Translations under genes and position numbers: made by a program
Virus record (IMG/VR): IMGVR_UViG_3300031705_000011
Location: 1 to 45,750 of that record
Strand: one strand, 5' to 3'
Origin: a virus
DNA length: 45,750 nucleotides
The notes under the pieces: model-generated
Databases searched by the model: none
What the model saw: the letters and a program-made list of their open reading frames with translations, nothing else
Told to the model about the DNA's origin: nothing
Shown: positions 19,966 to 42,402 of the stretch, piece after piece
Layout: every line of letters starts with the position of its first letter
How positions within the stretch are numbered: position 1 is the stretch's first letter

Positions 19966-20147
19966 TGGATAAAGACTTAAAAGAAATATTAAACAGAATT
20001 AAATTCTTAAAAGAGGATTTCGAAATGTTACAGGATGGAAGATGGAGTTTAGATTATTCAGATGGAACTGGAATTGAAGCATCATTGGTAAATTGTGATA
20101 AGATAATTGAGGCAGTTGAACGTATAAATTCAGCGGATGGTAAATAA
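19965..20147 (+). CDS. Small hypothetical protein, 60 aa
   Basis: The product is acidic and helical: LKEILNRIKFLKEDFEMLQD, then RWSLDYSDGTGIEASLVNCD and IIEAVERINS. There is no recognisable family. It overlaps the upstream stop by 1 bp and the next gene by 11 bp, so it is part of a coupled cluster. It could be a small partner of the SWIM protein encoded next, judged only from the overlap. Confidence 0.55.
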   Translation: MDKDLKEILNRIKFLKEDFEMLQDGRWSLDYSDGTGIEASLVNCDKIIEAVERINSADGK

Positions 20148-20328
20148 GTGGCAATATAGGGAAATGGGTAGCCGGAATAAAAAGACCGGTAAACTATCCT
20201 ACTATAACGTAACAGTAACCAACTATAAAATATCAGATTGTGAGTGTCCAGCTAGGGAATTCCGTAGTTACACTCCATGTAAACATATGAAGAGGTTAAA
20301 AGAAAAGCTATCTCATTTGGATATTTAA
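20137..20328 (+). CDS. SWIM-type zinc finger protein, 63 aa
   Basis: The product has a near-perfect SWIM zinc-binding pattern, CxC-x10-CxH: C35, C37, C48 and H50 (DCECPAREF ... YTPCKH). A beta-hairpin (SYYNVTVTNYKISD) precedes it, as in SWIM domains. SWIM fingers bind DNA or proteins and occur in transposases, Rad51-paralogue partners and small stand-alone phage proteins. Here the domain is almost the whole protein. The ATG at 20137 overlaps the preceding gene; a GTG at 20149 is an alternative start that keeps the whole finger. Confidence 0.7.
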   Translation: MVNKWQYREMGSRNKKTGKLSYYNVTVTNYKISDCECPAREFRSYTPCKHMKRLKEKLSHLDI

Positions 20329-20351: not shown

Positions 20352-21611
20352 ATGATTGATTTCAAAAGTAAAGGTTCTATAGTAATGAATAAAGTGTATA
20401 TGCACCCAATATGGGCGGATGTACATCTTCACCCTGCGCAAAATAAACTATCACTACTATACATCTATGATATAGAGGAAAAGCGGGAAGTTATTATTAA
20501 CATTGGTAATAGTGATTACCATACGTCATCCCTAAGTGATATAACGTTCGATATAAAGGAGGCAAATGTGTTTGGGAAGAAATCCTTCCTAAATATGATT
20601 GAACTCCCACAAACGGTTGAGGCGGGGTGGTACAAATACTTACAAGATAACGAAAACCTAAAAGAGTACCCAACATCAGCACATACGTTTTATCAGAGAA
20701 AGTTTCATAATATGAAATGGACAAATAACATTGTACCAATTACTAAACATATAGAATCAATCAGACAAACGAGAAATGAGTTCCTACGATATTACGATGT
20801 AGGTGGGGAAATCGAAAAAAGTGTGAAGAAATTTGACAATTTCTATATTGAGTCATTATCCAAAGTGGAAAAGAGTGGGATTTGGACAGAGAGTGGGATG
20901 GAGTGGACTCAATATCATCCGTTTACGCTAACATCAAGACCTTCAAACAACTTTGGGGGTATCAACTATGCTGCACTTAATAAAGAGAATGGTAGTAGAG
21001 ATAGATTTGTGAGTAGATTTGATGGGGGTACATTAATACAATTTGATTATGATGCCTATCATCCTCGTATCATTGGTAAAATGGTGGATGAGCCAATTCC
21101 ATTAGATATTTCCGGTCACCAAGCATTAGCCGATATGTATGGAGTTTCCTATAGTGAATCAAAACCGATAACGTTCCGACAATTATATGGTGGTGTACAA
21201 GATGAGTACTTACATATTCCGTTATTTAAGAAGGTTTCACATAAGATAGATAAGATGTGGGTTGAGTTCACACGTAATGGGTATATTAGAACTCCAATGG
21301 GGAGAAAGCTCGTTAGAAGTAACCTAAATGAGATGAACGCTAATAAACTGTTTAATTATGTATTACAGTCAACCGAAACAGAGTTAAATATGGTTATACT
21401 TTCTAAATTAATGGATAAGATGAAAGATATGAAGTCAAAAATGGTGTTATACACTTATGATTCATATTTATTGGATATGCATCCTTCGGAAATTGAGTTA
21501 ATTAAAGATTTAAAGATACTTATAGAAGTAAATGGATTCCCTACCAAATTAGAGAAGGGTAATCGTTACTCAGAAATGAAGTCGATTAATATAAAAGAAA
21601 CAGGTAAATAA
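20352..21611 (+). CDS. Reduced family A DNA polymerase-like protein (palm/fingers only)
   Basis: The product is 419 aa (408 if ATG 20385 is used). It carries the family A polymerase core in order: a TSRPSNNFGGINY segment (about 194-206, like the TGRLSS...NLQNIP stretch), motif A FDYDAYHPRI with Asp232, motif B K271-PIT-F275-RQL-Y279-G280 (the Pol I O-helix K-x3-F-x3-YG), a GYIRTPMGRK segment, and motif C YTYDS with Asp370. Both catalytic Asp positions and the O-helix Lys are kept. The Pol I His-Asp-Glu is Tyr-Asp-Ser, and the O-helix Arg four residues before the Lys is Tyr. There is no 3'-5' or 5'-3' exonuclease domain; full-length family A enzymes are over 580 aa. The phage also encodes a complete family B polymerase (36790-39306), so this is probably an accessory polymerase or a repurposed palm. 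Confidence 0.7.
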   Translation: MIDFKSKGSIVMNKVYMHPIWADVHLHPAQNKLSLLYIYDIEEKREVIINIGNSDYHTSSLSDITFDIKEANVFGKKSFLNMIELPQTVEAGWYKYLQDNENLKEYPTSAHTFYQRKFHNMKWTNNIVPITKHIESIRQTRNEFLRYYDVGGEIEKSVKKFDNFYIESLSKVEKSGIWTESGMEWTQYHPFTLTSRPSNNFGGINYAALNKENGSRDRFVSRFDGGTLIQFDYDAYHPRIIGKMVDEPIPLDISGHQALADMYGVSYSESKPITFRQLYGGVQDEYLHIPLFKKVSHKIDKMWVEFTRNGYIRTPMGRKLVRSNLNEMNANKLFNYVLQSTETELNMVILSKLMDKMKDMKSKMVLYTYDSYLLDMHPSEIELIKDLKILIEVNGFPTKLEKGNRYSEMKSINIKETGK

Positions 21612-21612
21612 T

Positions 21613-23823
21613 ATGAAGAATTTTCTTAAAGAGATTATGACGTTATGGTGGGTTGAAGCAGGAGTTGCTTTAAAAGACCCAAAAAGTGAAGCATCCATTA
21701 AAGCACTTAAAACAATTTTAAGGGAAGATTTAGAATTGGATGATGACTTTATAGATTATATAGTAGAGAGTGTTACAAACTCACCTACAAATTTTATACC
21801 TAAAGGTAATATTGATTCTGGTACTAAGGTAAATAAAACACAAACATCAGTTTCAGCACAAATAGCTAGTTGGTCTGATGATGAAGAAATTACAGAAGAT
21901 GAAGAAGTTGAAGAAATCGAAGGTGAAGAGCCTGATGAAGAAATTGATGATAAGGATGATGCAGTTAAAGATATTAAACTTAATGGACTTACTGATTATG
22001 AAAAAGATAAGTTAAAAGAAAATATATTAATTGAATTAGGGGCTATATTAAGTGAGGCTAGTGTTTATTCCGATGATTATGGATTAGGACACAAAGTGAT
22101 GTGGAGTTCAAGTGGTCAAAAATCATTTGCCGCAAGAATTGAAGATGGTGCACCGATGATGACAATGCCGGCTACGAAAGTTAAACCAACTGCTGATGCA
22201 ATCCAAGTCGGTGATGATACTGGAATTGAGGTTTATCTAAAAGGGGCTAACGGAAAAGTTTACCATATAAAAGGTAAAGGTACATCAGTTGGTAATATGT
22301 TCAAACATTATAAGGATAATACCTCATTTAAATTAGATACAGGTGATAAGGAAACTGCCGCTCTGTTAGGTGTTTATATTAATGCAGAGAAATTCCTTAG
22401 TGATTTCAATAACGCAACCGATGAAACACTTCCAAAATTAGTTACTACCTTTAAAAATACAGTAACATCAACGTTGACGGGACAGGATTGGGCCAGTAAT
22501 GATATAGTATCTATGTTGAGTAAAGCCTCTATTGTAAATATTATTCAAGTATGTGCAATTGCGGCCGGAATGGATAGATTCTGTAAGATTAAAGGAACAA
22601 AGGGTTGGAGTATTATTCACGGAAGAATCGAAGATTATTATACAGCCGAAAGTAAAAACCCACATACGAAAGCCGAAGGTAGTAAAAAGAATACTGCTGA
22701 TTGTGTCATTGTAAAGGGTAGTGTTGCTAGTTTCATAGAGAATTTAAAAACCGAAAAAATCTCATACGATAGTAATGGGTTATGTACATTAACATCAGGT
22801 GAGAAGTTTTTCCAAATATCATTAAAACAGGCAGAAGGTGAGGCTCAATTAGGAAAAATCACAAGTGATTTCGCTAAAAAGTTCGGAATGATGTCAAATG
22901 ATGATTTAGCTAATATGTTTATACATGAAGGTGTTCAGTTAGATGAAGGATTAAAAGATTTATTTGATAAGGGATTGAAGTTTGTAAAAAGTGTAGGAAA
23001 GGCTATCATTGATAAGATTTCTCAAATGAGTACTATGTTTGGTTCATTCTTTAAAGCTAATTTAAAAGCACTACAATCAGCTAAAAAGAAATCTGAAAAG
23101 AAAACCGATGATTTCATAATGAATCTATCAGTAGATAAGAAGTATTTAGATGAATCCTTGATATTAGAAAAAAAGGGAAAAATCTCAATAGAAGATAAAG
23201 TTGAAGCAATTGCACAAGACGCAGATGCATTTGGTAAACTATACACATACACCTCAAATAAATTTCTATTAGTATTAAAGAAAACGAAAAAGCCTGGGTT
23301 AAAATCAGTAGGTAACACCGTAATCCCAAAGGCATCCAAACCATCAGCTGATATAGTTAGAAAGTTAATGGCAAACGCCAAAGCATACGATTCTATTGAG
23401 AGGATATTATCGGGTGCTAGTGGTCAACAAAAGGAAGTGGACCAATTATTTAAAGATATGCTGACATTAGAAAAGGAAATGTACTTCGGACGAACATCAT
23501 TACCATTAGTAAAAGTATATGGGTTAAAGCCAAATGGTGGTGGTACTGCGTGGACATTCTTAAAAACAGGAAAGGAATTCGTAGAAGAACGTATATCAGC
23601 ATTTAGTGATATGCCTGAAAATGTACTTATAGTTAACTCAGCAGCACAAGCTGATGGGTATATGGCGGTTTCAACTCTTATGTTAAGTCATTTGAATAAA
23701 AAAACACAATCACCTATGTACAATATGGTAACATTTAGAACTAATAGTAAAACTTCAACTACATTTGTAATTGAAGGTTCAAAAGTTGTAAATATGAACT
23801 ATATTAGGAAAAATATATTATAA
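21613..23823 (+). CDS. 736-aa protein with PD-(D/E)XK nuclease-like signature
   Basis: The N-terminal part has a helical opening, then an acidic linker (about 94-120, DDEEITEDEEVEEIEGEEPD). Residues about 335-425 suggest a restriction-endonuclease-like fold: GRIEDYYTAE, then KKNTADCVIV (Asp near 363), then FFQISLKQAEGEAQLGK (Gln401, Lys405). The spacing 'D ... (Q/S)xxxK ... QLG' resembles nuclease-like proteins of marine T4-type phages. The C-terminal third is Lys-rich and helical. The start reads MKNFLKEIMTLWWVE|AG, which also resembles a T4 prohead-protease site (hydrophobic-x-Glu before a small residue). A packaged head protein is therefore an alternative. It starts 1 bp after the PolA-like gene. 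Confidence 0.5.
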   Translation: MKNFLKEIMTLWWVEAGVALKDPKSEASIKALKTILREDLELDDDFIDYIVESVTNSPTNFIPKGNIDSGTKVNKTQTSVSAQIASWSDDEEITEDEEVEEIEGEEPDEEIDDKDDAVKDIKLNGLTDYEKDKLKENILIELGAILSEASVYSDDYGLGHKVMWSSSGQKSFAARIEDGAPMMTMPATKVKPTADAIQVGDDTGIEVYLKGANGKVYHIKGKGTSVGNMFKHYKDNTSFKLDTGDKETAALLGVYINAEKFLSDFNNATDETLPKLVTTFKNTVTSTLTGQDWASNDIVSMLSKASIVNIIQVCAIAAGMDRFCKIKGTKGWSIIHGRIEDYYTAESKNPHTKAEGSKKNTADCVIVKGSVASFIENLKTEKISYDSNGLCTLTSGEKFFQISLKQAEGEAQLGKITSDFAKKFGMMSNDDLANMFIHEGVQLDEGLKDLFDKGLKFVKSVGKAIIDKISQMSTMFGSFFKANLKALQSAKKKSEKKTDDFIMNLSVDKKYLDESLILEKKGKISIEDKVEAIAQDADAFGKLYTYTSNKFLLVLKKTKKPGLKSVGNTVIPKASKPSADIVRKLMANAKAYDSIERILSGASGQQKEVDQLFKDMLTLEKEMYFGRTSLPLVKVYGLKPNGGGTAWTFLKTGKEFVEERISAFSDMPENVLIVNSAAQADGYMAVSTLMLSHLNKKTQSPMYNMVTFRTNSKTSTTFVIEGSKVVNMNYIRKNIL

Positions 23824-23837
23824 TATCGGAGAGATGA

Positions 23838-24227
23838 GTGAGAACACAATTATTATGTACATTTACAACTGAACCCACATTCGAAGAGATGTTAGCAAAC
23901 ATTTTGAAACGACATGAGGTATTCAGTAGAAAGATATTTATATTAAAACTTAACCCAACTAAAGAATTGGTAATAAGTTATAACATCGTACCAGACCGAA
24001 ACGCAAGCTTTGTACCAAATACAATAATGGTACATCGTAAGAAGGAAAGTAATACTATCTACACTATTAACGCATTGAATCGATTGATATTAGATTTAAA
24101 TGGGGGTGTTGTGGATAATCAATATCAAGTTGATTGGAGTGAGTATAAAAACTCAATGGTACTTACAGATGGCGATGGATATAAGGTAGTAACTACTAAA
24201 TTATTCAGTATAGTTGATGTTAATTAA
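23838..24227 (+). CDS. Conserved T4-type phage protein of unknown function
   Basis: The product is 129 aa. Starts with GTG; a GGAG lies close upstream, and an out-of-frame ATG at 23834 should not be mistaken for the start. Motifs TQLLCTFTT, FSRKIFILKLNPTKELVISY, PNTIMVHRKKESNTIYTINA and LNRLILDLNGG match a family I recall from cyanophages and other marine T4-type phages. It is usually annotated only as hypothetical. The 'HRKK..NT.YTINALN' block is the most conserved part. It lies 14 bp after the nuclease-like gene and is probably co-transcribed. Confidence 0.7.
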   Translation: MRTQLLCTFTTEPTFEEMLANILKRHEVFSRKIFILKLNPTKELVISYNIVPDRNASFVPNTIMVHRKKESNTIYTINALNRLILDLNGGVVDNQYQVDWSEYKNSMVLTDGDGYKVVTTKLFSIVDVN

Positions 24228-25233: not shown

Positions 25234-26031
25234 ATGGCAATTGATTTAAATGCAATTAGAAACAGACTAGACAGTCTACAAACGAAGGTAACAAAAACAG
25301 ATAACCTTTGGAAACCGAAACCAGGTAAACAACAAGTAAGAATAGTACCTTACATCCACAACGAATCCAACCCGTTTATTGAATTGTTCTTCCACTACGG
25401 ATTTGGTGGTAAGAATATCCTTTCACCTCAAACACATGGTGAGGCTGACCCATTAGTAGAGTTCGCTCAACAATTGAAGGCAACCGGTGATAGAAACGAT
25501 TGGAATTTATCAAAACAATTAACACCTAAGATGAGAACATACGTTCCAGTATTGGTTCGTGGTGAAGAATCTGAAGGAGTTAAATTTTGGGGATTCGGTA
25601 AAACAGTTTATCAGGAACTACTTGCGTTCTTCGCAGATCCTGATTATGGAGATTTAACTGACCCAATGAGTGGGAGAGATATCACCGTAGAATTCAAAAC
25701 AGCAAAAGAGTTAGGGAAAAACTACCCAGAAACTTACATCAGAGTAAAACCAAATCAAACATCTATCTCAGAAGATAAGAATATTTTAACAATGTTGAAA
25801 GACCAAATTGAGTTACCTTCAATGTTCAAAAAATATGATTATGATGAGATGAAAGGTTTATTGGAAACTTGGATGGAAACTGGGCAAGTAGGTGATACAG
25901 CAGAAGCTGAATCTACTCCGGCTCAACAACCACAATCAACTTCAAACAACACAAACGCACCTAAAGCATCTGTACCTTCTGGTAAGACTGCTGATGTAAA
26001 GGACGCATTTGATGATTTATTTAACAACTAA
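25234..26031 (+). CDS. 32: Single-stranded DNA-binding protein, gp32-like
   Basis: The product is 265 aa (T4 gp32 is 301 aa). The core has LWKPKPGKQQVRIVPYIHNE, then PFIELFFHYGFGG, PVLVRGEESEGVKFWGFGKT and PETYIRVKPNQTSI, the OB-fold block of gp32 in T4-type marine phages. The C-terminus is a Gln/Ser/Thr/Ala linker followed by the acidic tip DVKDAFDDLFNN, which in gp32 docks helicase loader, polymerase and recombination partners. The T4 zinc-binding Cys cluster is not visible: there is no Cys in the core. gp32 coats ssDNA in replication and recombination. It lies directly upstream of uvsX. Confidence 0.9.
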   Translation: MAIDLNAIRNRLDSLQTKVTKTDNLWKPKPGKQQVRIVPYIHNESNPFIELFFHYGFGGKNILSPQTHGEADPLVEFAQQLKATGDRNDWNLSKQLTPKMRTYVPVLVRGEESEGVKFWGFGKTVYQELLAFFADPDYGDLTDPMSGRDITVEFKTAKELGKNYPETYIRVKPNQTSISEDKNILTMLKDQIELPSMFKKYDYDEMKGLLETWMETGQVGDTAEAESTPAQQPQSTSNNTNAPKASVPSGKTADVKDAFDDLFNN

Positions 26032-26043: not shown

Positions 26044-27165
26044 ATGGCAACGAATCGTGATGAATTATCCTCACTTCTCGCCGATAATCTTAATAAAAAG
26101 TTCAAAGGACAAGCACAGGCTGCTTATTTCTTAGATGGCTCAGAACAGACACCCACCGACTTAACGGAGTGGGTGTCTACTGGGGATGATATGCTAGACT
26201 TAGCAATATCGAATCGACCTAACGGTGGATTTCCTGTCGGACGAATAGTTGAAGTTACGGGTTTAGAAGCAAGTGGAAAATCTCTACTATCAGCACATAC
26301 ATTAGCAAACTGCCAGAAGAAGGGTGGGTTAGCAGTGTACATTGATACAGAGAACGCAATCAATCAAGAGTTTTTAGAAGCATTAGGTATTGATACCGCC
26401 AAGTTACTTTATGTACCTATGGAAACGGTGGAAGATATATTTGCAGCTATGGATTCTATTATTGAATCAGTAAGAAAATCAGATAAGAAAAGATTAGTAA
26501 CAATTGTAGTTGATTCAGTCGCTGCAGCAACCACTAAAGTGGAACTTGCAGCTGATTATGACCAAGCGGGTTACGCAACCCAAAAGGCTATAATCATTTC
26601 AAAAGCAATGAGAAAGATTACTAACCTTATTGGAAGAGAGAGAATCTTAGTGGTATTTACAAATCAACTGAGAGTTAGGTTGGGTGTATCCTTTGGAGAC
26701 CCATACACAACCTCAGGTGGTAAAGCATTAGGGTTTCACGCATCTTGTAGATTGAGAATGAAACAGATGGGTAAACTTAACGCTAAAATTGGTGGAGTTG
26801 AACAGGCAGTTGGAATTAAGACAAGAGTTCAGGTTATTAAAAACCGAATGGGCCCACCATTACGTTCAATAGATTTTGAAATATACTTTGATAGGGGAAT
26901 TGATAGATATGCTTCATGGCTTAACACTATGAAAACATATAAGTTACTAGAACAAGGTGGTGCATGGTACACATGGACTTCTAAAGATACTGGTGAGATT
27001 ATTAAATTTCAAGCAAAGGATTTCGAAAAGAAATTGGATGAGAATCCAGCAATTAAAGAGGAAATATATAAACAAATCTGTGATGCATACATTTTGGGGT
27101 ACAAAGAAGCATCCCGAAACGCAAACACAGATACAACTCAATTAGATGATGGACACGAAATATAA
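26044..27165 (+). CDS. uvsX: RecA-like recombinase UvsX
   Basis: The product is 373 aa (T4 UvsX is 391 aa). Walker A is GLEASGKS (73-80), Walker B is VTIVVDS (Asp156), and there is a FTNQLR switch motif and the TSGGKALGFHAS stretch of RecA/UvsX proteins. UvsX forms filaments on gp32-cleared ssDNA and catalyses strand exchange, driving recombination-dependent replication and repair. It starts 12 bp after gp32 and overlaps the exonuclease gene by 20 bp, consistent with one recombination-replication operon. The C-terminus is acidic (TTQLDDGHEI). Confidence 0.93.
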   Translation: MATNRDELSSLLADNLNKKFKGQAQAAYFLDGSEQTPTDLTEWVSTGDDMLDLAISNRPNGGFPVGRIVEVTGLEASGKSLLSAHTLANCQKKGGLAVYIDTENAINQEFLEALGIDTAKLLYVPMETVEDIFAAMDSIIESVRKSDKKRLVTIVVDSVAAATTKVELAADYDQAGYATQKAIIISKAMRKITNLIGRERILVVFTNQLRVRLGVSFGDPYTTSGGKALGFHASCRLRMKQMGKLNAKIGGVEQAVGIKTRVQVIKNRMGPPLRSIDFEIYFDRGIDRYASWLNTMKTYKLLEQGGAWYTWTSKDTGEIIKFQAKDFEKKLDENPAIKEEIYKQICDAYILGYKEASRNANTDTTQLDDGHEI

Positions 27166-28183
27166 AGAAATATTCAGCAATCTATCAGAGACAAAGCATG
27201 GCGATGTTAATGATAAAGTAATGATTGTTGATGGTCTTAATATGTTTATCAGATGTTTTGGAGCAGTTCCGACATTAAATGACGATGGGAATCACGTCGG
27301 CGGGGTAACAGGTTTTCTGTTATCCCTCGGCGCTCTTATCCGAAATAATAAACCTACTAGAGTTTTTATGGTATTTGATGGAAAGGGTGGTTCAACTCGT
27401 AGAAAGAAAATGTATAAAGGTTATAAGGAAGGTAGAACTGGGATGACTAAAGTAAACAGATTAGCTGGATACGAAGATTTAGAGGACCAGAAAGAATCTA
27501 TGAAGAACCAATTCAATACGTTGATGAGGTACTTAGATTTACTTCCACTTGATGTGTGTTTTGTAGATTATGTTGAAGCTGATGATATTATGGCATATGC
27601 TGCGAGGCATGTATTCAAAAAGGAAGTTATGATAATCTCATCTGATAAGGATTTCTTACAATTAGTTGATGATAGAATCTCTGTGTATCAACCAACCAAA
27701 AAGAAATGGATGCATCCTGATGATGTTTTAGATTTATATGGAGTTCCATCAAAGAACTTAGTGTATTTCAGAATATTCGATGGAGATAAATCAGATAATA
27801 TCCCCGGTGTTAAAGGGGTAGGACCTAAAACCATTATTAACAAATTACCATTCTTACAAGAAGATAATATGAGTATGGATAAATTGTTTGAAAATGTGTT
27901 AAAGTTAGATGATGAAAAGCTAAAGGCAAAGATAATGGATAGTAAAGATGTATTAACATTGAACTATGACTTAATGCAGTTAGAAGAACCTGATATGTTG
28001 AGTTCAGCAATAACATCAACTGTTCGTAGTATGATAGATTCGCCAATAGAAGGGTTAAACTCATTTCAGTTCAAAAAAGACTTTATGGTTGACAAACTAT
28101 ATACAGCCTTTAAGAATATTGAGGTGTGGTTAGCTAATACTTGGACTGAATTAGACACCTATTCAAAACAAACTAAGAAATAG
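27146..28183 (+). CDS. rnh: 5'-3' exonuclease / RNase H (FEN-1 family, T4 Rnh-like)
   Basis: The product is 345 aa (T4 RNase H is 305 aa). The metal-binding acidic set of the FEN/5'-exonuclease family is present in order: IVDG (Asp29), MVFDG (Asp78), VEADD (Glu144, Asp146, Asp147), SSDKD (Asp167, Asp169) and FDGDKSDNIPGVKGVGPKT (Asp214, Asp217 plus the H3TH motif). The enzyme removes RNA primers and 5' flaps from lagging strands, stimulated by gp32. Tandem ATGs at 27146 and 27149 make the exact start ambiguous by one codon. It overlaps uvsX by 20 bp. Confidence 0.92.
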   Translation: MMDTKYKEIFSNLSETKHGDVNDKVMIVDGLNMFIRCFGAVPTLNDDGNHVGGVTGFLLSLGALIRNNKPTRVFMVFDGKGGSTRRKKMYKGYKEGRTGMTKVNRLAGYEDLEDQKESMKNQFNTLMRYLDLLPLDVCFVDYVEADDIMAYAARHVFKKEVMIISSDKDFLQLVDDRISVYQPTKKKWMHPDDVLDLYGVPSKNLVYFRIFDGDKSDNIPGVKGVGPKTIINKLPFLQEDNMSMDKLFENVLKLDDEKLKAKIMDSKDVLTLNYDLMQLEEPDMLSSAITSTVRSMIDSPIEGLNSFQFKKDFMVDKLYTAFKNIEVWLANTWTELDTYSKQTKK

Positions 28184-28221: not shown

Positions 28222-29580
28222 ATGGATAAATTCGGAAATAAATTTGGAACGAGCTTTCAAATCAAAATAATCTCAGCGCTACTATCTGACAGGGTATTCC
28301 TTCAAACGGTATATGATATATTATCACCAGATGCATTCGACTCGGATGCAAATGAGTGGTTGGTAAAGACTATACTAAAACATTTTGATGAATATAATGA
28401 ACTACCAACCTTAGATGTGTTTAAAGTTGAGATAGATAAGGTACAGAGGGATGTATTAAAACAATCGGTTTTAGACAACTTAAAGCAAGTTTGGAAGCAA
28501 ATTGAATCCGATGATTTGGATTACGTTAAAGAGCAAACGTTAGAGTTTTGTAAAAATCAAAACTTTAAGGGTGTTATTTTAGAATCTGTTCAATTACTTG
28601 AAGAAGGTAAATTTGATGTTATCAAAGAGAAGATTGATAACGCTATGAAGCAGGGGCAGGATACTGATATCGGTCATGAGTATAAGGCTGATGTAAAAGC
28701 CCGTTATGAGGAGAATATCAGAAATGTAATTCCGACTGGATGGGATGTTGTTGATGAATTAGTTGATGGTGGGTTTGGAAAAGGTGAACTTATACTATTT
28801 GCTGCACCTCCGGGTATTGGTAAATCGTGGGCATTAATTAATGTTGGAATGGCCGCTGTAAAAGCTGGTAAAACTGTAGTTCATTATACATTGGAGTTAA
28901 ATGAAGGGTATGTAGGTCAGAGGTATGATGCAATACTAACAGGTACTGCAGTACAAAACCTTAAATTTAACATTGAAGATGTTGAACGACAGGTTGCTAA
29001 TTTAGAAGGTGAGTTGATAGTAAAATATTGGCCAACTAAATCGGCAGGATTGAACGCAATGAGGGCTAGTTTGGATAAACTAATACTACAAGGTAAGAAA
29101 CCTGATGTAATAATTTGTGATTACGCTGATTTACTGAAAGGGAATAGTAGAAAGGAACGACATGAAGAGTTAGAGGAATTGGTGGAAGGTTTAAGAGGAA
29201 TTGCTGGTGAATATGAATGTCCGTTATATACAGCATCACAGATTAATAGAAGTGGAGCAGACCAAGATGTTATTACAGGTACATCAATCGCAGGTTCATT
29301 CTCTAAGTTAATGACCGCTGATTTCGTAGTTTCATTGAGTAGAAAAATCGAAGATAAATTAGCAGGAACGGGTCGATGGCACGTTATTAAAAATAGATTC
29401 GGACCGGATGGAATGACTCTACCTTCTAAAGCAAATATGAGTAACGGTAGGATGAGTATTTATTCAGATGATTCCATTGATGGTCAAAATACCAAAACGG
29501 AGATGAACAAAGGGGAGAGTATGGTACGAAAGAATTTGTTACAAAAATACAATGAATTGAATAATGATATTGATTTTTAA
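28222..29580 (+). CDS. 41: Replicative DNA helicase, gp41-like (DnaB family)
   Basis: The product is 452 aa (T4 gp41 is 475 aa). The N-terminal domain (about 1-130) is followed by the RecA-like motor: PTGWDVVDELVDGGFGKGEL, Walker A APPGIGKS (195-202), YTLELNE, Walker B PDVIICDY (Asp300), TASQINRSG and KNRFGPDG (arginine-finger region). It forms hexamers that unwind DNA 5'-3' ahead of gp43 and bind the primase. It starts almost at the predicted transcription start, and no later in-frame Met precedes the core, so leaderless translation is likely. The primase gp61 and loader gp59 were not found in this window. Confidence 0.92.
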   Translation: MDKFGNKFGTSFQIKIISALLSDRVFLQTVYDILSPDAFDSDANEWLVKTILKHFDEYNELPTLDVFKVEIDKVQRDVLKQSVLDNLKQVWKQIESDDLDYVKEQTLEFCKNQNFKGVILESVQLLEEGKFDVIKEKIDNAMKQGQDTDIGHEYKADVKARYEENIRNVIPTGWDVVDELVDGGFGKGELILFAAPPGIGKSWALINVGMAAVKAGKTVVHYTLELNEGYVGQRYDAILTGTAVQNLKFNIEDVERQVANLEGELIVKYWPTKSAGLNAMRASLDKLILQGKKPDVIICDYADLLKGNSRKERHEELEELVEGLRGIAGEYECPLYTASQINRSGADQDVITGTSIAGSFSKLMTADFVVSLSRKIEDKLAGTGRWHVIKNRFGPDGMTLPSKANMSNGRMSIYSDDSIDGQNTKTEMNKGESMVRKNLLQKYNELNNDIDF

Positions 29581-33351: not shown

Positions 33352-34155
33352 ATGAAAGAAGAGGGAAAGGATTACTGTGATGTATCTAAGGTACATATAG
33401 CGCCAATAGCAAAATCTATTGCCAAAGATATGATTATCAAAAAGCATTATACGCATGCTTGGACTGCTTGTAGATACGCATTAGGTGTTTACTACAAAGC
33501 AGATGATAGTTCATTTCAATTTGGTGAAGATAAGTTAATCGGTGTTGCAGTATATGGTTTCCCAGTTGGGGCTAGAGCAGCAACTTCAATATCTGAAGAA
33601 TTAACAAAAGACAATGTATTAGAACTTACTCGTTTATATATAGATGACGGGTATGGTTCTAATATAGAATCTTTTGCAATGTCACAAACATTTAAGTGGT
33701 TAAAAGAAAACGATAAAAACATCAAATGTTTACTTAGTTATGCAAATAACGGTGAAGGGCATGTTGGTGGAATTTACAAAGCAACCAATTGGGTGTATCA
33801 GGGATTAAATACTGATATAGCACTTATGCCGAATTGGGGTATATCTTTAACCAAAGACCCATACAATTGGATTCATAGTAGAACTGTATATTCATTATGG
33901 GGTAGTGGTAACTTAGAGCATCTTCGTAAAGAAATCGGTAAAGAAGGACATACTGAATTTTGGAGACGTGAAGAACCACCAAAGCATAGGTACATTCAGT
34001 TGTTACCTCAAAGTAAAAAAGAAAAGAAACATTTAATGGGTAGTTTAAAACACCCAATCAGACCGTATCCGAAGGATGCATCTGAATACAACACCGAAGT
34101 TGTAACACATACCACTTATGCGCCTGAGGAATCGAACGCAATAAACTTTTGGTAG
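33352..34155 (+). CDS. Mom-like DNA-modification acyltransferase
   Basis: The product is 267 aa. It shows the Mom/GNAT-like family pattern: KDMIIKKHYTHAW with the His-Tyr pair (32-33), LIGVAVYGFPVG (62-73), NVLELTRLYID (88-98), FAMSQTFKWLK (108-118), and SYANNGEGHVGGIYKATNWV (129-148). Phage Mu Mom converts adenines in DNA to N6-methylcarbamoyl-adenine and so blocks restriction. The usual family motif is SYAD; here it is SYAN (Asn132), a possible change at an Asp reported as functionally important in Mom. Residues 160-267 are a family-variable extension. Neighbours (ParB-like protein, glycosyltransferase) strengthen a DNA-modification role. The exact chemistry cannot be read from sequence. 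Confidence 0.75.
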   Translation: MKEEGKDYCDVSKVHIAPIAKSIAKDMIIKKHYTHAWTACRYALGVYYKADDSSFQFGEDKLIGVAVYGFPVGARAATSISEELTKDNVLELTRLYIDDGYGSNIESFAMSQTFKWLKENDKNIKCLLSYANNGEGHVGGIYKATNWVYQGLNTDIALMPNWGISLTKDPYNWIHSRTVYSLWGSGNLEHLRKEIGKEGHTEFWRREEPPKHRYIQLLPQSKKEKKHLMGSLKHPIRPYPKDASEYNTEVVTHTTYAPEESNAINFW

Positions 34156-34158
34156 TGA

Positions 34159-34185
34159 GTTTACAGTAAACAATCTACTGTAAAC
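34159..34185 (+). repeat. Inverted repeat (10-bp arms) after the Mom-like gene
   Basis: Perfect arms GTTTACAGTA / TACTGTAAAC around a 7-base loop. There is no T tract after it, so it is either a weak terminator or a protein-binding dyad upstream of the next promoter. Confidence 0.6.
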
Positions 34186-34190
34186 ATTAA

Positions 34191-34320
34191 ATTGTTAATA
34201 ACTTTTTAAAATAAATCATAAAAGGCTAGGAATTTCAATATATTATTCGTATCTTTATTATGTAATAAGAAAGGGACAGAGTTGAGTCCTATAATAAATA
34301 AATAAATAAATAAATAATAA
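34191..34320 (+). promoter_or_regulatory. Early-type promoter with upstream element, leader hairpin and ATAA repeats
   Basis: ATTGTTAATAAC element from 34191, TAG (34227-34229), 20-bp spacer, TATCTTTA (34250-34257). The leader is TAATAAGAAAGGG with a GGAC / GTCC hairpin (34273-34290), then an unstructured (ATAA)n tract at 34294-34320 before the ATG at 34326. It duplicates the cassette at 18479-18579. Confidence 0.75.
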
Positions 34321-34325
34321 AAATT

Positions 34326-35639
34326 ATGGCAGAATTAGTAGTAAGTAGTGGTAATGGTATTAAAAATCAGTTTAGGTTATCTGAATCTGATTTTTATAAG
34401 ATACCATCAATGAAAGAAGTTGATTTAGGAAATCAGCCAATGGCATATGAGGCATATCTTTATTATATTAAAGATTTGATATCTGGTAGTATGTACTTAG
34501 GGGTACACAAACTTAATGATAAATTATATTGGACTTCTATGAAGCATTTGGAAGGAAAAGCAATTCTTCAAGGTGATGAAAAGCGTATTCAATATAAAAT
34601 ATTAGAATATGGTGAGTATTCTACTATGAAAAACAAAGAATCTGATGAAATAGATAAGCATGACGCTGTTCGGTCTCCCGAATTTTGGAATCAGATGTAT
34701 GGTTCATATCACAAAGAAAAAATGAGACCTTCATTAGTTAAAGAGATTGTATCTAATATAGAGAATGGTGTATATCCCATTACAACTGAAAGTGTATCTA
34801 ATTTGGTGAAAATATCAACTTGGCAAGTTAGATTGGGGGAGTATGTTCCTAGTTTACTTAAATATATAAAATCTAAAATCAACGAAGTTAGTGGTAGTAC
34901 TAAAAATTGTAATCCAATTGTTATATTAGAAGATAGATTAAATAAAAAACTATATAGAGAAACTGATTTAAGAATTGATGGAGCACATACATTAAAAGCC
35001 GCTCATAGTTGTGGCTCACTTACAATAAAAGTAATCAGAATACCTAAAGAGATACATGCTGATTTATCGACTAGTGAGATTGAGTTGATTGCGACTGGGC
35101 TTAATAAAGATAAAGAAATTAGAAAAGAACCAAATAGTAAAGAAACTTTAGCAAAAACGATATTCGGATTTTGGTTAAGAAATCGACTGGAAATAGATTC
35201 AGATATGAATATTGGTATTCTAAAAGATTCTGGTAAAGATTCAGCTGAAAGAAGAGATATCTTTAAAAAAGCTGAAGAACTTAAAAAATCATATTTGTAT
35301 GAAACTCTTCAGAATGTAGTATTGATTGATTATCAAGAAGCAGATAAGGGAGTTCTTACTAAAGCTGTAACCGAAAGTACAACCGATAAAACTTTAGCTA
35401 TATCCCAATCATCATCTTCACTTCGTTGGGATAGAGCATGTGAGAAAATGCAAGATGATAAGCAGGGTAGAAAACACCTTGCTTATTACGTTTATCATTC
35501 ATCATTTATTGCAGCTGAAGAGTTATGGGTAGATGAAGAGATGAAATTAAGAGAGAGATTGGATTATTGGTTAACATCAAAGGGATACACTTACGAAATA
35601 ATAGAAATGACTTACAAACGTGAAAAAGTAATATTATGA
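34326..35639 (+). CDS. GIY-YIG-like / ParB-like fusion protein
   Basis: The product is 437 aa with two recognisable parts. Residues about 41-110 look like a divergent GIY-YIG fold: YEAYLYYIKDLISGSMYLGV (GIY and YIG strands), YWTSMKH, then YKILEYGEY and a Glu at 105. Residues about 195-300 look like a ParB/Srx-type domain: NPIVILEDR, then LRIDGAHTLKAA (Asp218, Gly219, His221) and IKVIRIPKEI, where ParB has (D/E)G.HR..A. An all-helical C-terminal domain follows. ParB-like domains of this kind occur in phage DNA-modification loci and in nucleases. The last bases overlap the glycosyltransferase start (ATGA), so the two are translationally coupled. Confidence 0.6.
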   Translation: MAELVVSSGNGIKNQFRLSESDFYKIPSMKEVDLGNQPMAYEAYLYYIKDLISGSMYLGVHKLNDKLYWTSMKHLEGKAILQGDEKRIQYKILEYGEYSTMKNKESDEIDKHDAVRSPEFWNQMYGSYHKEKMRPSLVKEIVSNIENGVYPITTESVSNLVKISTWQVRLGEYVPSLLKYIKSKINEVSGSTKNCNPIVILEDRLNKKLYRETDLRIDGAHTLKAAHSCGSLTIKVIRIPKEIHADLSTSEIELIATGLNKDKEIRKEPNSKETLAKTIFGFWLRNRLEIDSDMNIGILKDSGKDSAERRDIFKKAEELKKSYLYETLQNVVLIDYQEADKGVLTKAVTESTTDKTLAISQSSSSLRWDRACEKMQDDKQGRKHLAYYVYHSSFIAAEELWVDEEMKLRERLDYWLTSKGYTYEIIEMTYKREKVIL

Positions 35640-36775
35640 TGGAATTTTGGGAAAGTATAGATTATAGTAAAGCGAGGAAAGTGTTAGTGATACCAAATAT
35701 CACTAACTCCTCAAACATAGAGAAAGACTCTTTTGTAGATGTAATACATAACCACATCAAAGGGTTAGATAAATATGGTGAATACTTTTGGCACATCGTA
35801 ATGCCGACTGGTAAAGTAAGTAAGAAACTTAACTTACCAAATGTAAAACAACATCAGGCTGACATTCCCGGTGATATGATGAATCAGAGGGCATATCCAC
35901 CTGATAAGTTAATCGCTATATTAAGGGATGTTGATTATGATGTAATATATTCACATTTACCAGATTGGCCGCAAGTTGGTAGGTATAAGAATTCAATCGA
36001 TACTAAGATAATAGGATATTGTCATTGGTGGGAAATGAAATCATCTAATGGAATTGACCGTAGACCCGGTAAAGCAAAGTGGTTATGGTTACCAATTGAA
36101 TTATTAGGTGTATCTCAGATGGATACTTGTTATTTAAATACACAAGACCAAAAGAATAGGGTATTAGCAGAAGCAAAGGAAACCTTCAATGATGAGTTCG
36201 TTGATAAATTAGATAATATTCTTAATGTATGGAATTTAGGTGTACAATCTGAAAAGATTGTGGATACTATTAAAGATACTAAAGAAAATGTTATTGTATT
36301 TAATCACAGAGCAGCAGCATATAAAGGATATCCTAAGTTTATAGAACTAATGGAAGAGTATAGAACTAAACGACAGGATTTCAAAGTATGGATTCCTCAG
36401 TTGAATGGTACACCACCACATAGTTGGATTGATAATTCAAAAGTACCAAAGCACGAATACTATGCTAGATTACAAAATTGTAAGGTAGGTGTTCAGATGA
36501 AGCAAACTAACTACGGTTGGTCTGTAAGTGGTACTGACTGTATGATGAATGGTACACCAATGATATGGCACGATTCAGAGTGTTATCACGAAATAGACCC
36601 GAATGGGATGTTCTTTAAATTCAAAAAGGATTTCTTTTCGATGTTAGATACATTGTTGGATAATGATGAAGTAAGAAAGGAAAAAGACACACTTGCTATA
36701 GAGAGAGCAAAAGAACTTTCAAAAAATGAAGGGGAAATGCTTGGTAATCTCCATAAAAAGTTGTATATTTGTTAA
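35636..36775 (+). CDS. GT-B type glycosyltransferase
   Basis: The product is 379 aa. The N-terminal half is a Rossmann-like domain (KVLVIPNITNSSNIEK, then YDVIYSHLPDW and IIGYCHWWEM). The C-terminal half has the nucleotide-sugar-binding layout of GT4-like enzymes: VIVFNHRAAAYKGYPKFIEL, KVPKHEYYARLQNCKVGVQM, YGWSVSGTDCMMNGTPMIWH and a closing acidic helix. T4-type phages use GT-B enzymes to glucosylate modified cytosine in DNA. Lying between the ParB-like gene and DNA polymerase, this is a candidate DNA-base glycosyltransferase. Surface-sugar transfer cannot be excluded. Its 3' end contains the gp43 promoter. Confidence 0.7.
   Translation: MMEFWESIDYSKARKVLVIPNITNSSNIEKDSFVDVIHNHIKGLDKYGEYFWHIVMPTGKVSKKLNLPNVKQHQADIPGDMMNQRAYPPDKLIAILRDVDYDVIYSHLPDWPQVGRYKNSIDTKIIGYCHWWEMKSSNGIDRRPGKAKWLWLPIELLGVSQMDTCYLNTQDQKNRVLAEAKETFNDEFVDKLDNILNVWNLGVQSEKIVDTIKDTKENVIVFNHRAAAYKGYPKFIELMEEYRTKRQDFKVWIPQLNGTPPHSWIDNSKVPKHEYYARLQNCKVGVQMKQTNYGWSVSGTDCMMNGTPMIWHDSECYHEIDPNGMFFKFKKDFFSMLDTLLDNDEVRKEKDTLAIERAKELSKNEGEMLGNLHKKLYIC
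36741..36771 (+). promoter_or_regulatory. Early-type promoter for gp43, inside the glycosyltransferase 3' end
   Basis: TTG (36741-36743), 20-bp spacer, TATATTTG (36764-36771); the gp43 ATG is at 36790. The promoter overlaps the last codons of the upstream gene. Confidence 0.75.
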
Positions 36776-36789: not shown

Positions 36790-39306
36790 ATGTATCAAAA
36801 TGTATATTGGGAAAAAGAAGGAGGCATCCTACATTGCTGGGATGACAAGAAGGGGTACTTCACAAAGAAGCACCGAAATTATGCGTATATTGAGGATGGG
36901 AATGGCTCACATCAATCAATTTATGGTGAGCGTTTAAAGAAAATCAATTATTGGAATAGAGAAGATAATCTGAAATTATATGAATCTGATGTAAATGAGG
37001 TAACTCGTTTCCTAATTGATGAGTATGGTGATTCGGATGAAGTATCAGAAGGTAACATCGTATTAACATTTGATATTGAGGTAGAAATGAATTCAGGTCT
37101 ACCGGATATATCAGAAGCTAAAAACGCAATGACTTCAGTAGCATTCCATGATTCAGCAACAAATGATTATTATGTATATGTTATCACCCCAGGTGAAGAG
37201 ATAAACAAAACTATCAAAGGTGCTATGGTTCGTTCGTTTGAAAATGAAGAAGATATGTTAATGGCATTCTTAAACAAATGGGAAGAGATTGCACCTACTA
37301 TTATTACAGGATGGAATATTGATTTCTTTGATGTAACTTATATGTACAACCGAATGAAGCGAATGGTTGGTAAGAAGAACGCAGATAGACTCTCACCAAT
37401 TCAAAAAGTTCATTGGAATAAATACAGACAGCGTTATATCATAGCTGGTGTATCTGCATTAGATTACATCGCTCTATTCAAAAACTTTACATATACTGAA
37501 TATCCAAATTATCGATTAGATACTATCGCTAGAATGGAATTGGGTAGAGGTAAGATTGAGTATGAGGGGAACTTAGACCAACTATTCAGAGATGATATTG
37601 AAAAGTTCATTGAGTATAACTTAGTGGATGTTGAATTGGTAGTTGATATGGATAAGAAATTACAATTCATTGAATTAGCCAGAGCAATCTGTCATGCAGG
37701 TCACGTATTCTATGAGGATTTCATATTCTCATCAAAGTGGTTAGAGGGGGCAATATTAACATTCCTACGAAGAAGTGGGCGTGTAGCTCCAGATAGACCT
37801 TTAAGAAGAAATAAAAACTCCGATGGCTCAGATGCAGAAGGTAAGTTTACCGGAGCATATGTAAAAGAACCTAAACCAGGTCTTTATAAGTGGGTATATG
37901 ATTTAGATTTAACATCACTATATCCATCTATTATTATGACAATTAACATTTCACCCGAAACGAAGATTGGTAAGGTTAAAGGTTATACAGCAGAGGACCA
38001 TATGAAATCTAAAATTGATGAATATATCATTGTAGATGATGATGGTAATGAATATCCTACTATGGATAAAGGTAAGTTTGAGGATTTCACTAAGAAGATG
38101 AATGTATCGATAGCATCTAATGGTGTTTTATACTCTTTAGAAAAAGTAGGTGTAATACCTGAGATTCTTAATGTATGGTTTGATAAGAGGGTTCAGTATA
38201 AAGATGAAATGAAAAAGCATGGAAAGGCTGGAAATGATGATTTATATAAATTCTATCATCAAAGACAGTTAGTTCAGAAAATTATGTTAAATTCACTTTA
38301 TGGTGTATTAGGGCTACCAGCCTTTAGATTCTATGATGTGGATAACGCAGAAGCAGTTACACTTACAGGTCAGACTGTAATTAAAACTACTGAGATGATA
38401 GCTAACAGTTATTATGTTAAGCATATTGGTAAAGAGGCTGATTACAATGTATATACAGATACGGATTCTGTATTTTATCAGGCAGCTCCATTAGTGAAAG
38501 CTAGAAACCCTGAAATTGATGAGAATGATGATGCACAAATGATACCTGCTATATTGCAAGTAGCACAAGAGGTTGAGGCTCACATCAATGGAACGTATGA
38601 CATGATGTCAAAGAAGTTATTCAATGTAACTAATCATCGATTCGATATAAAGCAAGAGACTATCGCAAAAGGTGGTTTTTGGGTATCAAAGAAACGATAC
38701 GCACAATGGATTATCAATGATAACTCCGTAGATTGTGATAAGTTGGATGTAAAGGGGCTAGATGTAAAACGTAGTTCATTTCCAACATACTTTAAAGAGG
38801 TGATGTCAACTGTATTATGGGATATTCTAAAGGATGAAGATAAGATGTTATTGGACCAGAAGATTTTAGATTATAAGGATGATATGCCGAATCGAAATTA
38901 CATCGATATTGCTAAGAATTCAGCAGTAAAGGGTATGAGTAAGTATTCTACTAAAACGCAAGTATTAGGTGAGTTTATGAAAGGTACACCAGCGCATGTT
39001 AAAGCAGCACTTACTTACAATCAGTTATTGAAGTATTATAAGGCAGCATTTAAATATGAACCAATGAAAGATGGTGATAAGATAAAGTATGTGTATTTGA
39101 AGAATAATCCATTAGGATTGGAAACTGTAGGTATGACTGGATATAATGACCCGAAAGAGATATTAGATTTGGTAGAACAATACATCGACTATGATAAGTT
39201 ATGGGAACGTGAATTAAAGAATAAGTTAGATGATTTCTACGCCGCCATGGATTGGGAGAACCCAAATCCAAACTTAGAGAAAATCGGACAATTCTTTTCA
39301 TTTTAA
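36790..39306 (+). CDS. 43: DNA polymerase, family B, gp43-like
   Basis: The product is 838 aa (T4 gp43 is 898 aa). All exonuclease and polymerase motifs are present. Exo I FDIEVE (Asp95, Glu97), Exo II GWNIDFFD (Asp178), Exo III YNLVD (Tyr276, Asp280), motif A DLDLTSLYPSI (Asp373), motif B KIMLNSLYG (Lys497, Asn501, Tyr504), motif C YTDTDS (Asp557, Asp559) and a SKKRY stretch. It is the main replicative, proofreading polymerase. No intein or intron is seen. The start shows the AAGTTATG context. The clamp gene follows behind its own promoter. Confidence 0.95.
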   Translation: MYQNVYWEKEGGILHCWDDKKGYFTKKHRNYAYIEDGNGSHQSIYGERLKKINYWNREDNLKLYESDVNEVTRFLIDEYGDSDEVSEGNIVLTFDIEVEMNSGLPDISEAKNAMTSVAFHDSATNDYYVYVITPGEEINKTIKGAMVRSFENEEDMLMAFLNKWEEIAPTIITGWNIDFFDVTYMYNRMKRMVGKKNADRLSPIQKVHWNKYRQRYIIAGVSALDYIALFKNFTYTEYPNYRLDTIARMELGRGKIEYEGNLDQLFRDDIEKFIEYNLVDVELVVDMDKKLQFIELARAICHAGHVFYEDFIFSSKWLEGAILTFLRRSGRVAPDRPLRRNKNSDGSDAEGKFTGAYVKEPKPGLYKWVYDLDLTSLYPSIIMTINISPETKIGKVKGYTAEDHMKSKIDEYIIVDDDGNEYPTMDKGKFEDFTKKMNVSIASNGVLYSLEKVGVIPEILNVWFDKRVQYKDEMKKHGKAGNDDLYKFYHQRQLVQKIMLNSLYGVLGLPAFRFYDVDNAEAVTLTGQTVIKTTEMIANSYYVKHIGKEADYNVYTDTDSVFYQAAPLVKARNPEIDENDDAQMIPAILQVAQEVEAHINGTYDMMSKKLFNVTNHRFDIKQETIAKGGFWVSKKRYAQWIINDNSVDCDKLDVKGLDVKRSSFPTYFKEVMSTVLWDILKDEDKMLLDQKILDYKDDMPNRNYIDIAKNSAVKGMSKYSTKTQVLGEFMKGTPAHVKAALTYNQLLKYYKAAFKYEPMKDGDKIKYVYLKNNPLGLETVGMTGYNDPKEILDLVEQYIDYDKLWERELKNKLDDFYAAMDWENPNPNLEKIGQFFSF

Positions 39307-39397: not shown

Positions 39398-40093
39398 ATG
39401 AAAAAAGCAAGTATTGAACAGTTCATCAATCGTTACAATTTAGGTGGCGAAGTAGAATCAGTAAAAATTGAATCAACTGATGATTCATTGAAGGTAAGTT
39501 TTATATCAGATGATAAAACGCTATTGGGTACAGTAGAATCGGCAGAGAAGGATTTTCCAAATGGTGAATTCGGTATCTATACAACATCTCAGATGAAGGC
39601 GTTATTAGGTGTAGTTGAATCCAACTTAGAAGTTGCAGCTCATCAATCACATCTTACATTCTCAGATAAAGGGACATCGGTAAACTATATGTTGGCTGAT
39701 TTATCAGTAATACCAGTAGTACCGGATTTAAAGCAAGTACCACCATTTGATTCTGAAATTACATTAGATGATGAGTTTACGAGTAGATTTATTAAATCTA
39801 AAGGAGCACTTAACGAATCGGATACATTTACATTTACTTGTAAAGGTGGAAAGGGTGAAGTTGTATTAGGTTACTCAACTATTAACACAAATAGAATTTC
39901 TATGAATGTGGAATGTAAATGTGAGAAGGATATCAAACCAATTTCATTTTCGGCAAAGTATCTAAAGGAGATATTAAACGCTAACAAAGGTTCTAAATCA
40001 GCAACGTTGAAAATAGCATCAGCTGGATTAGCACATGTTAAATTCGAAAGAGATGGTTTAGTTTCGAACTATTATTTAGTGGAAATTAAGTAG
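39398..40093 (+). CDS. 45: Sliding clamp, gp45-like
   Basis: The product is 231 aa (T4 gp45 is 228 aa). It follows gp43, and gp44 and gp62 lie downstream. The family pattern is visible: KTLLGTVESAEKDFPNGEFG, IYTTSQMKALLGVV, YMLADLSVIPVVPDLKQVP and HVKFERDGLVSNYYLVEIK. gp45 is a trimeric ring that tethers polymerase to DNA. In T4 it also activates late transcription by contacting the late sigma factor, which may matter for the TATTTATA promoters. The sequence is acidic overall, as expected for a clamp. Confidence 0.9.
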   Translation: MKKASIEQFINRYNLGGEVESVKIESTDDSLKVSFISDDKTLLGTVESAEKDFPNGEFGIYTTSQMKALLGVVESNLEVAAHQSHLTFSDKGTSVNYMLADLSVIPVVPDLKQVPPFDSEITLDDEFTSRFIKSKGALNESDTFTFTCKGGKGEVVLGYSTINTNRISMNVECKCEKDIKPISFSAKYLKEILNANKGSKSATLKIASAGLAHVKFERDGLVSNYYLVEIK

Positions 40094-41466: not shown

Positions 41467-42402
41467 ATGGTAAATAAAGAAGAAAAACACTCATTATGGG
41501 TGGAGGCATACAGACCCGATTCAATGGAAGGTTACGTTGGTAATGAACACATCATTGAAAAGGTAAAGATTTATATAGAGAATAACGATGTACCACATTT
41601 GTTACTATATGGACAAGCTGGGACAGGTAAAACGACATTAGCTAAAATCATTACTAATCAAATTGATTGTGATTTAATGTATATCAACGCATCTGATGAG
41701 AATTCAGTTGATGCAGTTCGTGATAAGATTCGTGGATTCGCATCATCAATGGGATTTAAAGATTGGAAAATCGTAATATTAGATGAGGCTGATTACTTAA
41801 CACCAAATGCTCAAGCAGCACTTAGGAATTTGATGGAAACATTCTCCCGAACTACAAGATTCATTTTGACTTGTAATTATGTAGAGAAGATAATCGACCC
41901 GATTCAAAGTAGATGTCAGACATTTGGAATTACACCACCATCTAAAAAGGATGTAGCTATGAGATTGAAGCAAATCTTAGATACTGAAGAGGTGAAGTAT
42001 GAAATGACCGACTTAGCAGTATTAGTGAATAGTGGGTATCCTGATATTCGTAGAGTGTTAAACGCAGCACAACGACAGGTTGTGGGTAATGAATTGAAAA
42101 TTGATAAAACATCAACAATTCAGGCTAACTATATGGAAGAGGTGCTCGCTATATTAAAATCGGATGGTGGTGTTAAGGATTCATTTACTAAAGTGAGGCA
42201 GATTATTGCTGATTCTAAGGTAAGAGATTTCACCCCATTCTACAGATTTATGTATGATGAAGTGGATAACTACGCAAATGGTAAATTAGGTAATACAATC
42301 CTAAAGATTGCAGATGCACAGTACAAAGATTCAGCAGTAGTTGATAAGGAAATCAATATAATGGCAATGTTATTAGAAATTCTAATCGATATTAAAGGTT
42401 AA
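41467..42402 (+). CDS. 44: Clamp loader large subunit, gp44-like (AAA+ ATPase)
   Basis: The product is 311 aa (T4 gp44 is 319 aa). Walker A GQAGTGKT (49-56), Walker B VILDEAD (103-109), sensor-1 LTCNY (134-138), and the SRC arginine-finger motif (148-150) are all present. With gp62 it forms the 4:1 loader that opens gp45 and closes it on primer junctions. The C-terminal third is the all-helical collar. In T4 the order is 45-44-62; here the DruA-like gene is inserted before 44, and two small genes lie between 44 and 62. Confidence 0.94.
   Translation: MVNKEEKHSLWVEAYRPDSMEGYVGNEHIIEKVKIYIENNDVPHLLLYGQAGTGKTTLAKIITNQIDCDLMYINASDENSVDAVRDKIRGFASSMGFKDWKIVILDEADYLTPNAQAALRNLMETFSRTTRFILTCNYVEKIIDPIQSRCQTFGITPPSKKDVAMRLKQILDTEEVKYEMTDLAVLVNSGYPDIRRVLNAAQRQVVGNELKIDKTSTIQANYMEEVLAILKSDGGVKDSFTKVRQIIADSKVRDFTPFYRFMYDEVDNYANGKLGNTILKIADAQYKDSAVVDKEINIMAMLLEILIDIKG

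Follow-up and report, generated by a model that had tools for sequence, protein, structure and literature searches.

The closest described relatives of the protein analysed here belong to divPolA1, reported in 14 phages, including Flavobacterium phage immuto, in a 2024 study entitled 'DNA polymerase swapping in Caudoviricetes bacteriophages' (Virol J, PMC11348598). According to that study, divPolA1 comes on top of a regular polymerase, which may be of family A, B or C, and has replication genes downstream, and the regular polymerases sit in less telling neighbourhoods. The palm residues of divPolA1 are described as retained, its thumb as truncated and its exonuclease as inactivated, with all three catalytic exonuclease Asp residues replaced in the representatives, and DNA polymerase activity was judged most likely retained. 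The main text of the paper uses neither 'steric' nor 'translesion', and a literature search for 'divPolA1' returned only this paper and its preprint. A second group in the same study, divPolA2 of barbaviruses, resembles the protein described below in being a divergent second PolA without a normal thumb that occurs beside PolB. It differs by description in lacking an exonuclease domain, in having an unrelated N-terminal globular domain and in its variable neighbourhoods.

The window, by which we mean the whole 45,750-nucleotide stretch of IMG/VR virus record IMGVR_UViG_3300031705_000011 that was analysed, contains a real and complete ORF of 419 aa that almost certainly belongs to divPolA1. The protein is homologous to the product of immuto gene 1 (MW353176; tblastn E 1e-27, 25.4% identity, 87% coverage). 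Like divPolA1 of immuto, it has a family A palm with its catalytic residues and a truncated thumb, is an extra polymerase and has replication genes downstream. The two nevertheless share only 25% identity, and the window has gp43 alongside whereas immuto has a full PolA. An initial annotation of this DNA had regarded a reduced PolA in a genome with gp43 as unexpected; a second polymerase does occur beside gp43, but the family was already in print as divPolA1 (PMC11348598), which limits the novelty of the finding in the window. What we add is the invariance of active-site residues together with fixed substitutions, purifying selection, the presence of a primase in large records, and a 129-aa companion protein. 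The text of the published divPolA1 section does not mention the substitutions at the places of Glu710, R754 and H881 or the 129-aa companion; the figures of that paper show alignments of key residues and coloured neighbourhoods.

A reduced family A polymerase-like protein

The ORF and the motifs within it are as follows.

20352-21611, + strand: divPolA1-type family A DNA polymerase-like protein, 419 aa (ATG start; motifs, profiles and fold)
20352-20741, + strand: putative degenerate 3'-5' exonuclease-type domain, residues 1-130 (from the fold alone)
20868-20879, + strand: E173-x-x-G176, counterpart of the IERNG that opens the Pol I polymerase domain; no thumb follows
20931-20948, + strand: T194-x-R196-P-S-N199, counterpart of E. 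coli Pol I TGR(668)LSS, register by hhalign
21045-21062, + strand: motif A, D232-Y-D-A-Y-H237, Asp retained and His at the place of the steric-gate Glu710
21162-21191, + strand: O-helix, K271-x3-F275-x3-Y279-G280, with Tyr267 (R754 place) immediately before
21354-21383, + strand: N335-x3-Q339-x2-E342-x-E344, counterparts of N845 and Q849
21456-21464, + strand: motif C, Y369-D370-S371, HDE in Pol I

Taken as a single sequence, the 419-aa protein matches Pfam DNA_pol_A below the cut-off (E 1.9e-6, 27.5 bits against 34.3 bits), and PHROG_17 DNA polymerase matches it at E 5.5e-12. A profile of its family finds Klenow in the PDB at E 2.2e-9. Alignment by hhalign with three family A polymerases (E 8.8e-9) gives the expected register, placing R196, D232, H237, K271, Y279, Q339 and D370 on R668, D705, E710, K758, Y766, Q849 and D882 of E. 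coli Pol I. The initial annotation had located Asp232, K271-x3-F275-x3-Y279-G280 and Y369-D370-S371 correctly in an ORF of about 419 aa. Its central claim, a reduced PolA-like protein that keeps its active site in a genome with gp43, is borne out by profile, fold and conservation alike.

Predicted fold and absence of the thumb

We built an AlphaFold2 model of the protein using a 27-sequence family alignment, from which two relatives with stop codons at 415 and 432 (L030 and L073) were left out. The model (pLDDT 91.0, pTM 0.88) carries the palm/fingers fold of family A polymerases. Foldseek and VIA-align returned, among the matches listed, the family A DNA polymerases Klenow, KlenTaq, Bst, mycobacterial Pol1, apicoplast polymerase, pol nu and pol theta. 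By VIA-align, model residues 1 to 411 align with KlenTaq 4n56_A residues 295 to 832 (Z 28.5, rmsd 3.2, 347 aligned) and residues 1 to 410 with Bst 1xwl residues 300 to 876 (Z 27.1, rmsd 3.5, 396 aligned). No RNA polymerase is among the 50 matches listed for each of two fold searches, a scope that is compatible with similarity to such enzymes.

The initial annotation had supposed that the exonuclease domain is missing. However, model residues 1-411 align with the whole Klenow fragment, including the exonuclease region. Residues 176-411 number 236, so at least 111 (4n56) or at least 160 (1xwl) of the aligned residues precede residue 176. Because these N-terminal residues also align with both structures, a degenerate exonuclease-type domain appears to be present. 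It is not detectable by profile alignment: hhalign of residues 1-182 with E. coli residues 324-560 gives a probability of 2-3%. Three acidic columns are conserved within residues 1-150 (D55, E90 and E135), which by eye lie off the catalytic places of Pol I in a part of the alignment that is of low confidence. The protein probably acts without proofreading, a reading that leans on the published models because the exonuclease-type part cannot be aligned with confidence.

The layout departs from that of a canonical family A enzyme in that palm and fingers are there and the thumb is absent. The stretch from the Gly of IExNG (G176) to the Arg of TxRPSN (R196) measures 20-40 residues across 152 family proteins, and 20 in the window protein, but 124 in E. 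coli Pol I, where it runs from G544 to R668. Motif A and motif C are also closer together, at 128-147 residues (n=153) versus 177 in E. coli Pol I. Loss of the thumb alters the behaviour of Klenow. Since in family A enzymes a helix of the thumb accounts for much of the contact to the duplex backbone (PMC9224347), low processivity is expected, and a polymerase with no thumb to grip the duplex would be distributive, as we infer.

Conservation of the active site

We assessed conservation in 161 distinct relatives; the set includes fragments (the shortest open frame is 109 aa), and denominators therefore differ from column to column. Although identity to the window protein goes down to 24%, the catalytic Asp residues are invariant (D232 in 155/155, D370 in 158/158), as are R196 (155/155), K271 and Y279 (156/156 each), G280, and Q339 and E342 (158/158 each). 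F275 is kept in 155/156 and N335 in 157/158; position 344 is Glu in 103 of 158. The protein resembles Klenow of E. coli Pol I, KlenTaq and Bst in its fold over residues 1-411, the motif A Asp, the K-F-YG of the O-helix, Q849 and the motif C Asp.

Other positions differ from the Pol I Klenow type, in addition to the absent thumb and the shorter spacing between motifs A and C. The steric-gate Glu710 is replaced by His (H237) in all 156 sequences that cover it, the R754 place (267) is Tyr in 139 of 155, and the HDE of motif C has become YD[S/A], with Y369 at the H881 place in 158/158 and either Ser (110) or Ala (48) at the E883 place (371). At the E710, R754 and H881 places, Glu, Arg and His are retained in E. 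coli Pol I, in T7 gp5 and in the full immuto PolA. The Ser after the motif C Asp is found also in T7 RNA polymerase, which has HDS.

In eight of nine pairs of relatives, dN/dS is 0.11-0.37, which indicates purifying selection. The ninth pair, L007/L012, is near-identical (dS 0.004), and its value of 0.74 is uninformative. On the grounds of residue invariance and dN/dS, the active site is under selection and changed in a fixed manner rather than decayed. The same two lines of evidence rule out a pseudogene or remnant.

R754 contacts the triphosphate in Pol I. Nucleotide binding must differ here because R754 is mostly Tyr and Glu710 is always His, and catalysis could be altered or lost as a result of these replacements. 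The 419-aa protein is nevertheless likely to be an active polymerase.

Distribution of relatives

A single-sequence search of IMG/VR found 136 relatives, and a profile search found at least 593 matching stretches. At an E threshold of 0.01, tblastn matched 84 of 50,697 phage records, of which 60 are listed. The six best, at E 1e-27 or better, comprise four immuto entries, Microcystis phage Mel-JY01 and an uncultured 484-kb phage; the other 54 listed reach E 2e-5 at best, and almost all of them carry an ordinary DNA polymerase annotation. A prophage or cellular origin was also considered and rejected: a pattern search of genome contigs gave 72 matches, of which two are relatives, both on MAG contigs.

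Replication genes around divPolA1

The window contains a T4-type set of replication genes downstream of divPolA1.

25234-26031, + strand: gp32-type single-strand DNA-binding protein (PF08804 E 6.7e-15)
26044-27165, + strand: UvsX/RecA-type recombinase (PF00154 E 2.4e-58)
27146-28183, + strand: Pol I-type 5'-3' nuclease (PF02739 E 2.2e-33, phrog_107 E 3.1e-33)
28222-29580, + strand: DnaB/gp41-type replicative helicase (PF03796 E 9.3e-19)
36790-39306, + strand: gp43-type family B polymerase with exonuclease domain (PF00136 E 2e-43, PF03104 E 2.3e-24)
39398-40093, + strand: gp45-type sliding clamp (phrog_223 E 7.6e-11)
41467-42402, + strand: gp44-type clamp loader (phrog_168 E 4.8e-81)
42918-43382, + strand: gp62-type clamp loader small subunit (phrog_225 E 7.4e-18)

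In relatives too, the conserved gp32-UvsX-5' nuclease-helicase operon lies downstream of divPolA1. PolB is present in 13 of 15 relatives' records. In Flavobacterium phage immuto, PolB was not found, and a separate full PolA of 777 aa (gene 71) adjoins the GroES/GroEL genes; in an 81-kb record (G009), neither PolB nor a full PolA was found. Because immuto has a full PolA and no PolB was found in it, we conclude that the main polymerase has been exchanged there while divPolA1 remains. The divPolA1 gene itself is most likely not the main polymerase.

Overall, 8 of the 15 records encode a gp61/DnaG-type primase (phrog_47). All seven records of at least 160 kb have it, and so does one of the eight shorter records (59-113 kb). 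The idea in the initial annotation of a primase-like enzyme, taken as a substitute for the phage primase, conflicts with the presence of phrog_47 in 7/7 of the large records, and replacement of the primase is ruled out on the same count.

A 129-aa companion protein

A second conserved gene lies between divPolA1 and the gp32-type gene.

23838-24227, + strand: 129-aa accompanying protein, g129 (GTG start; conserved)

We collected loci through IMG/VR searches with divPolA1 (as a single sequence and as a profile), the 129-aa protein and UvsX, keeping the best 80 matches of each search. The 129-aa protein is encoded in 91 of the 96 loci fetched through divPolA1. Of the five loci without it, two (L101 and L143) end at the divPolA1 gene and the others continue downstream for 4.3 kb (L162) or 6 kb (L070 and L072). 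A pooled count gives 87/89 loci with at least 5 kb downstream and 71/77 with less, but it is mixed, since it includes loci fetched through the 129-aa protein, and 91/96 is the fair figure. In the reverse direction, the best 80 of at least 589 matches to the 129-aa protein gave 77 loci after three duplicates were dropped; divPolA1 or its end lies upstream in 70 of these, and the remaining seven have less than 2 kb of contig upstream. The 129-aa protein is found in 6 of the 50,697 phage records, the same six that match divPolA1 best.

Fetching through UvsX gave 79 distinct loci from the best 80. With at least 7 kb upstream, 23 of 24 loci have both genes; the exception, L309, has the 129-aa gene and less than 3 kb of contig before it. 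Of the loci with shorter upstream stretches, 20 have 3-7 kb, and of these 14 carry both genes, five only the 129-aa gene and one neither (L308, 4.6 kb); the other 35 have less than 3 kb, and there three carry both, nine only the 129-aa gene and 23 neither. Together these counts suggest that divPolA1 and the 129-aa protein are functionally coupled. Coupling is only suggested, because no locus, L308, L309, L070, L072 and L162 included, has clearly lost one or both genes, and the two could just belong to the core gene set of a single large clade.

The 129-aa gene starts 7-67 bases past the divPolA1 match in 16 of 33 representatives and 1.3-2.9 kb further on in the other 17. In the clade of the window, the two genes are separated by a 736-aa ORF (21613-23823, + strand) that begins one base past divPolA1. 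The initial annotation had called this neighbour nuclease-like, but searches of Pfam, PHROGs and PADLOC gave it no significant match, and the 5'-3' nuclease is the gene at 27146-28183. Among relatives of the 736-aa ORF, conserved columns fall within the first 127 residues.

The 129-aa protein is modelled with a pLDDT of 92.4. No Foldseek match was found at E 0.001, and the best VIA-align match, which covers 60 residues in the N-terminal half at Z 6.3, is at noise level. The window protein has no Pfam match at E 1, no PADLOC match and a best PHROG match of E 0.31, and its profile matches the PDB at E 0.12 or worse. Its immuto relative gives FecR_C at E 0.0035, under the cut-off, and a best PHROG match of E 0.0075. 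The 129-aa protein may hold the polymerase on DNA or recruit it.

Possible roles of divPolA1

The best explanation overall, and one we consider somewhat probable, is that divPolA1 is an accessory, distributive and non-proofreading polymerase for short patches that acts beside the gp43 replisome. In this view, a Klenow-type family A polymerase lost its thumb and retained its palm/fingers site, along with no more than a degenerate domain of the exonuclease type. The thumb-less enzyme would work distributively, and without proofreading, on gp32/UvsX-coated intermediates, where it would fill gaps left by the 5' nuclease of the same operon, replace RNA primers or pass lesions, leaving the copying of the genome to gp43 and its clamp. 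Such a job would be close to that of Pol I with its 5' nuclease, here as separate proteins. We give the short-patch accessory role in itself an even chance, and within it we infer that translesion synthesis or gap filling is the best reading.

Nothing singles out gaps or lesions as the task of this gene, and the operon fits recombination-primed synthesis equally well. The nearest rival is a polymerase dedicated to recombination, which would extend the D-loop primers made by UvsX and then hand over to gp43. The gene lies ahead of gp32 and UvsX in a conserved operon and occurs with UvsX in 23/24 loci that have at least 7 kb upstream. However, that co-occurrence marks a core gene of the clade and is uninformative on its role, the gene order also includes the 5' nuclease and the helicase, and T4 extends D-loop primers with gp43 alone; we regard this alternative as rather unlikely. 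It is very improbable that divPolA1 is the main replicative polymerase and gp43 secondary. The position of divPolA1 in the conserved replication operon would suit such an arrangement, as would the less telling places of the regular polymerases (PMC11348598), but divPolA1 has no thumb and apparently no proofreading, whereas gp43 has an exonuclease domain and is followed by clamp and clamp loader genes.

The altered active site raises two further alternatives. In Pol I, Glu710 is the steric gate and F762 a 'steric gate assistant' (PMC13228545). The His that takes the place of Glu710 in 156/156 relatives, in contrast to the Glu of E. coli Pol I, T7 gp5 and the full immuto PolA, might admit NTPs and so make the enzyme a primer extender, an auxiliary primase or a small RNA polymerase, and the T7 RNA polymerase-like Ser of motif C and the absent thumb point the same way. 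Against this, His is not small, F275 (the F762 counterpart) is kept in 155/156, no primase is missing from the seven relatives' records of at least 160 kb, and the fold matches listed are DNA polymerases that align across the exonuclease-type part too; an RNA-tolerant enzyme is unlikely. We equally disfavour a catalytically dead relative that uses the polymerase fold as a scaffold or DNA-end binder. The counterparts of R754, H881 and E883 are replaced and the thumb is gone, but the metal-binding Asp residues and the active-site K, Y, R and Q are invariant among members down to 24% identical. The repurposed fold raised in the initial annotation, in the sense of a dead enzyme, is made less likely by the invariance of D232, D370, K271, Y279, R196 and Q339 and by dN/dS of 0.11-0.37 in 8/9 pairs.

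A more speculative version, which we consider quite improbable, is a two-subunit thumb-less polymerase in which the 129-aa protein would grip DNA in trans and the His sugar gate would allow mixed ribo/deoxy patches. If true, this enzyme would be a third priming/patching activity in these phages, besides gp61 and gp43.

A thumb-less polymerase that keeps both catalytic Asp residues and the other central residues of the active site across a large phage family offers a natural test of the roles of the thumb and of the Glu710 sugar gate. Should it prove active, it would be a family A polymerase of unusually small size, and the small protein that constantly accompanies it is a concrete candidate for an accessory subunit. 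Another question that the case touches is why T4-type phages retain a second polymerase beside a complete gp43 replisome, even after exchange of the main polymerase.

Other genes in the window

Just upstream of divPolA1, a 63-aa protein (20137-20328, + strand) has a weak SWIM zinc-finger match (E 0.013, under the cut-off). A 405-aa protein encoded between the clamp and clamp-loader genes (40222-41439, + strand) matches DruA/DUF4338 profiles of the Druantia defence system (PADLOC E 1.1e-16); its relatives occur in 31 phage records, most of them from Synechococcus phages and three from pelagiphages.

The region just before gp43 (33352-36775, + strand) is possibly a DNA hypermodification cluster. 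The Mom-like DNA-modification protein encoded here (phrog_1384 E 4.7e-45) precedes a 437-aa protein, which has a weak nucleotidyltransferase match (Pfam Polbeta E 0.0032, under the cut-off) and no PDB relative at E 1, and a protein with weak glycosyltransferase matches. Two of the Flavobacterium phage immuto loci (L082 and L085) carry QueC/D/E/F, FolE and DpdA annotations, which suggest that DNA modification of the 7-deazaguanine kind occurs in a phage with divPolA1.
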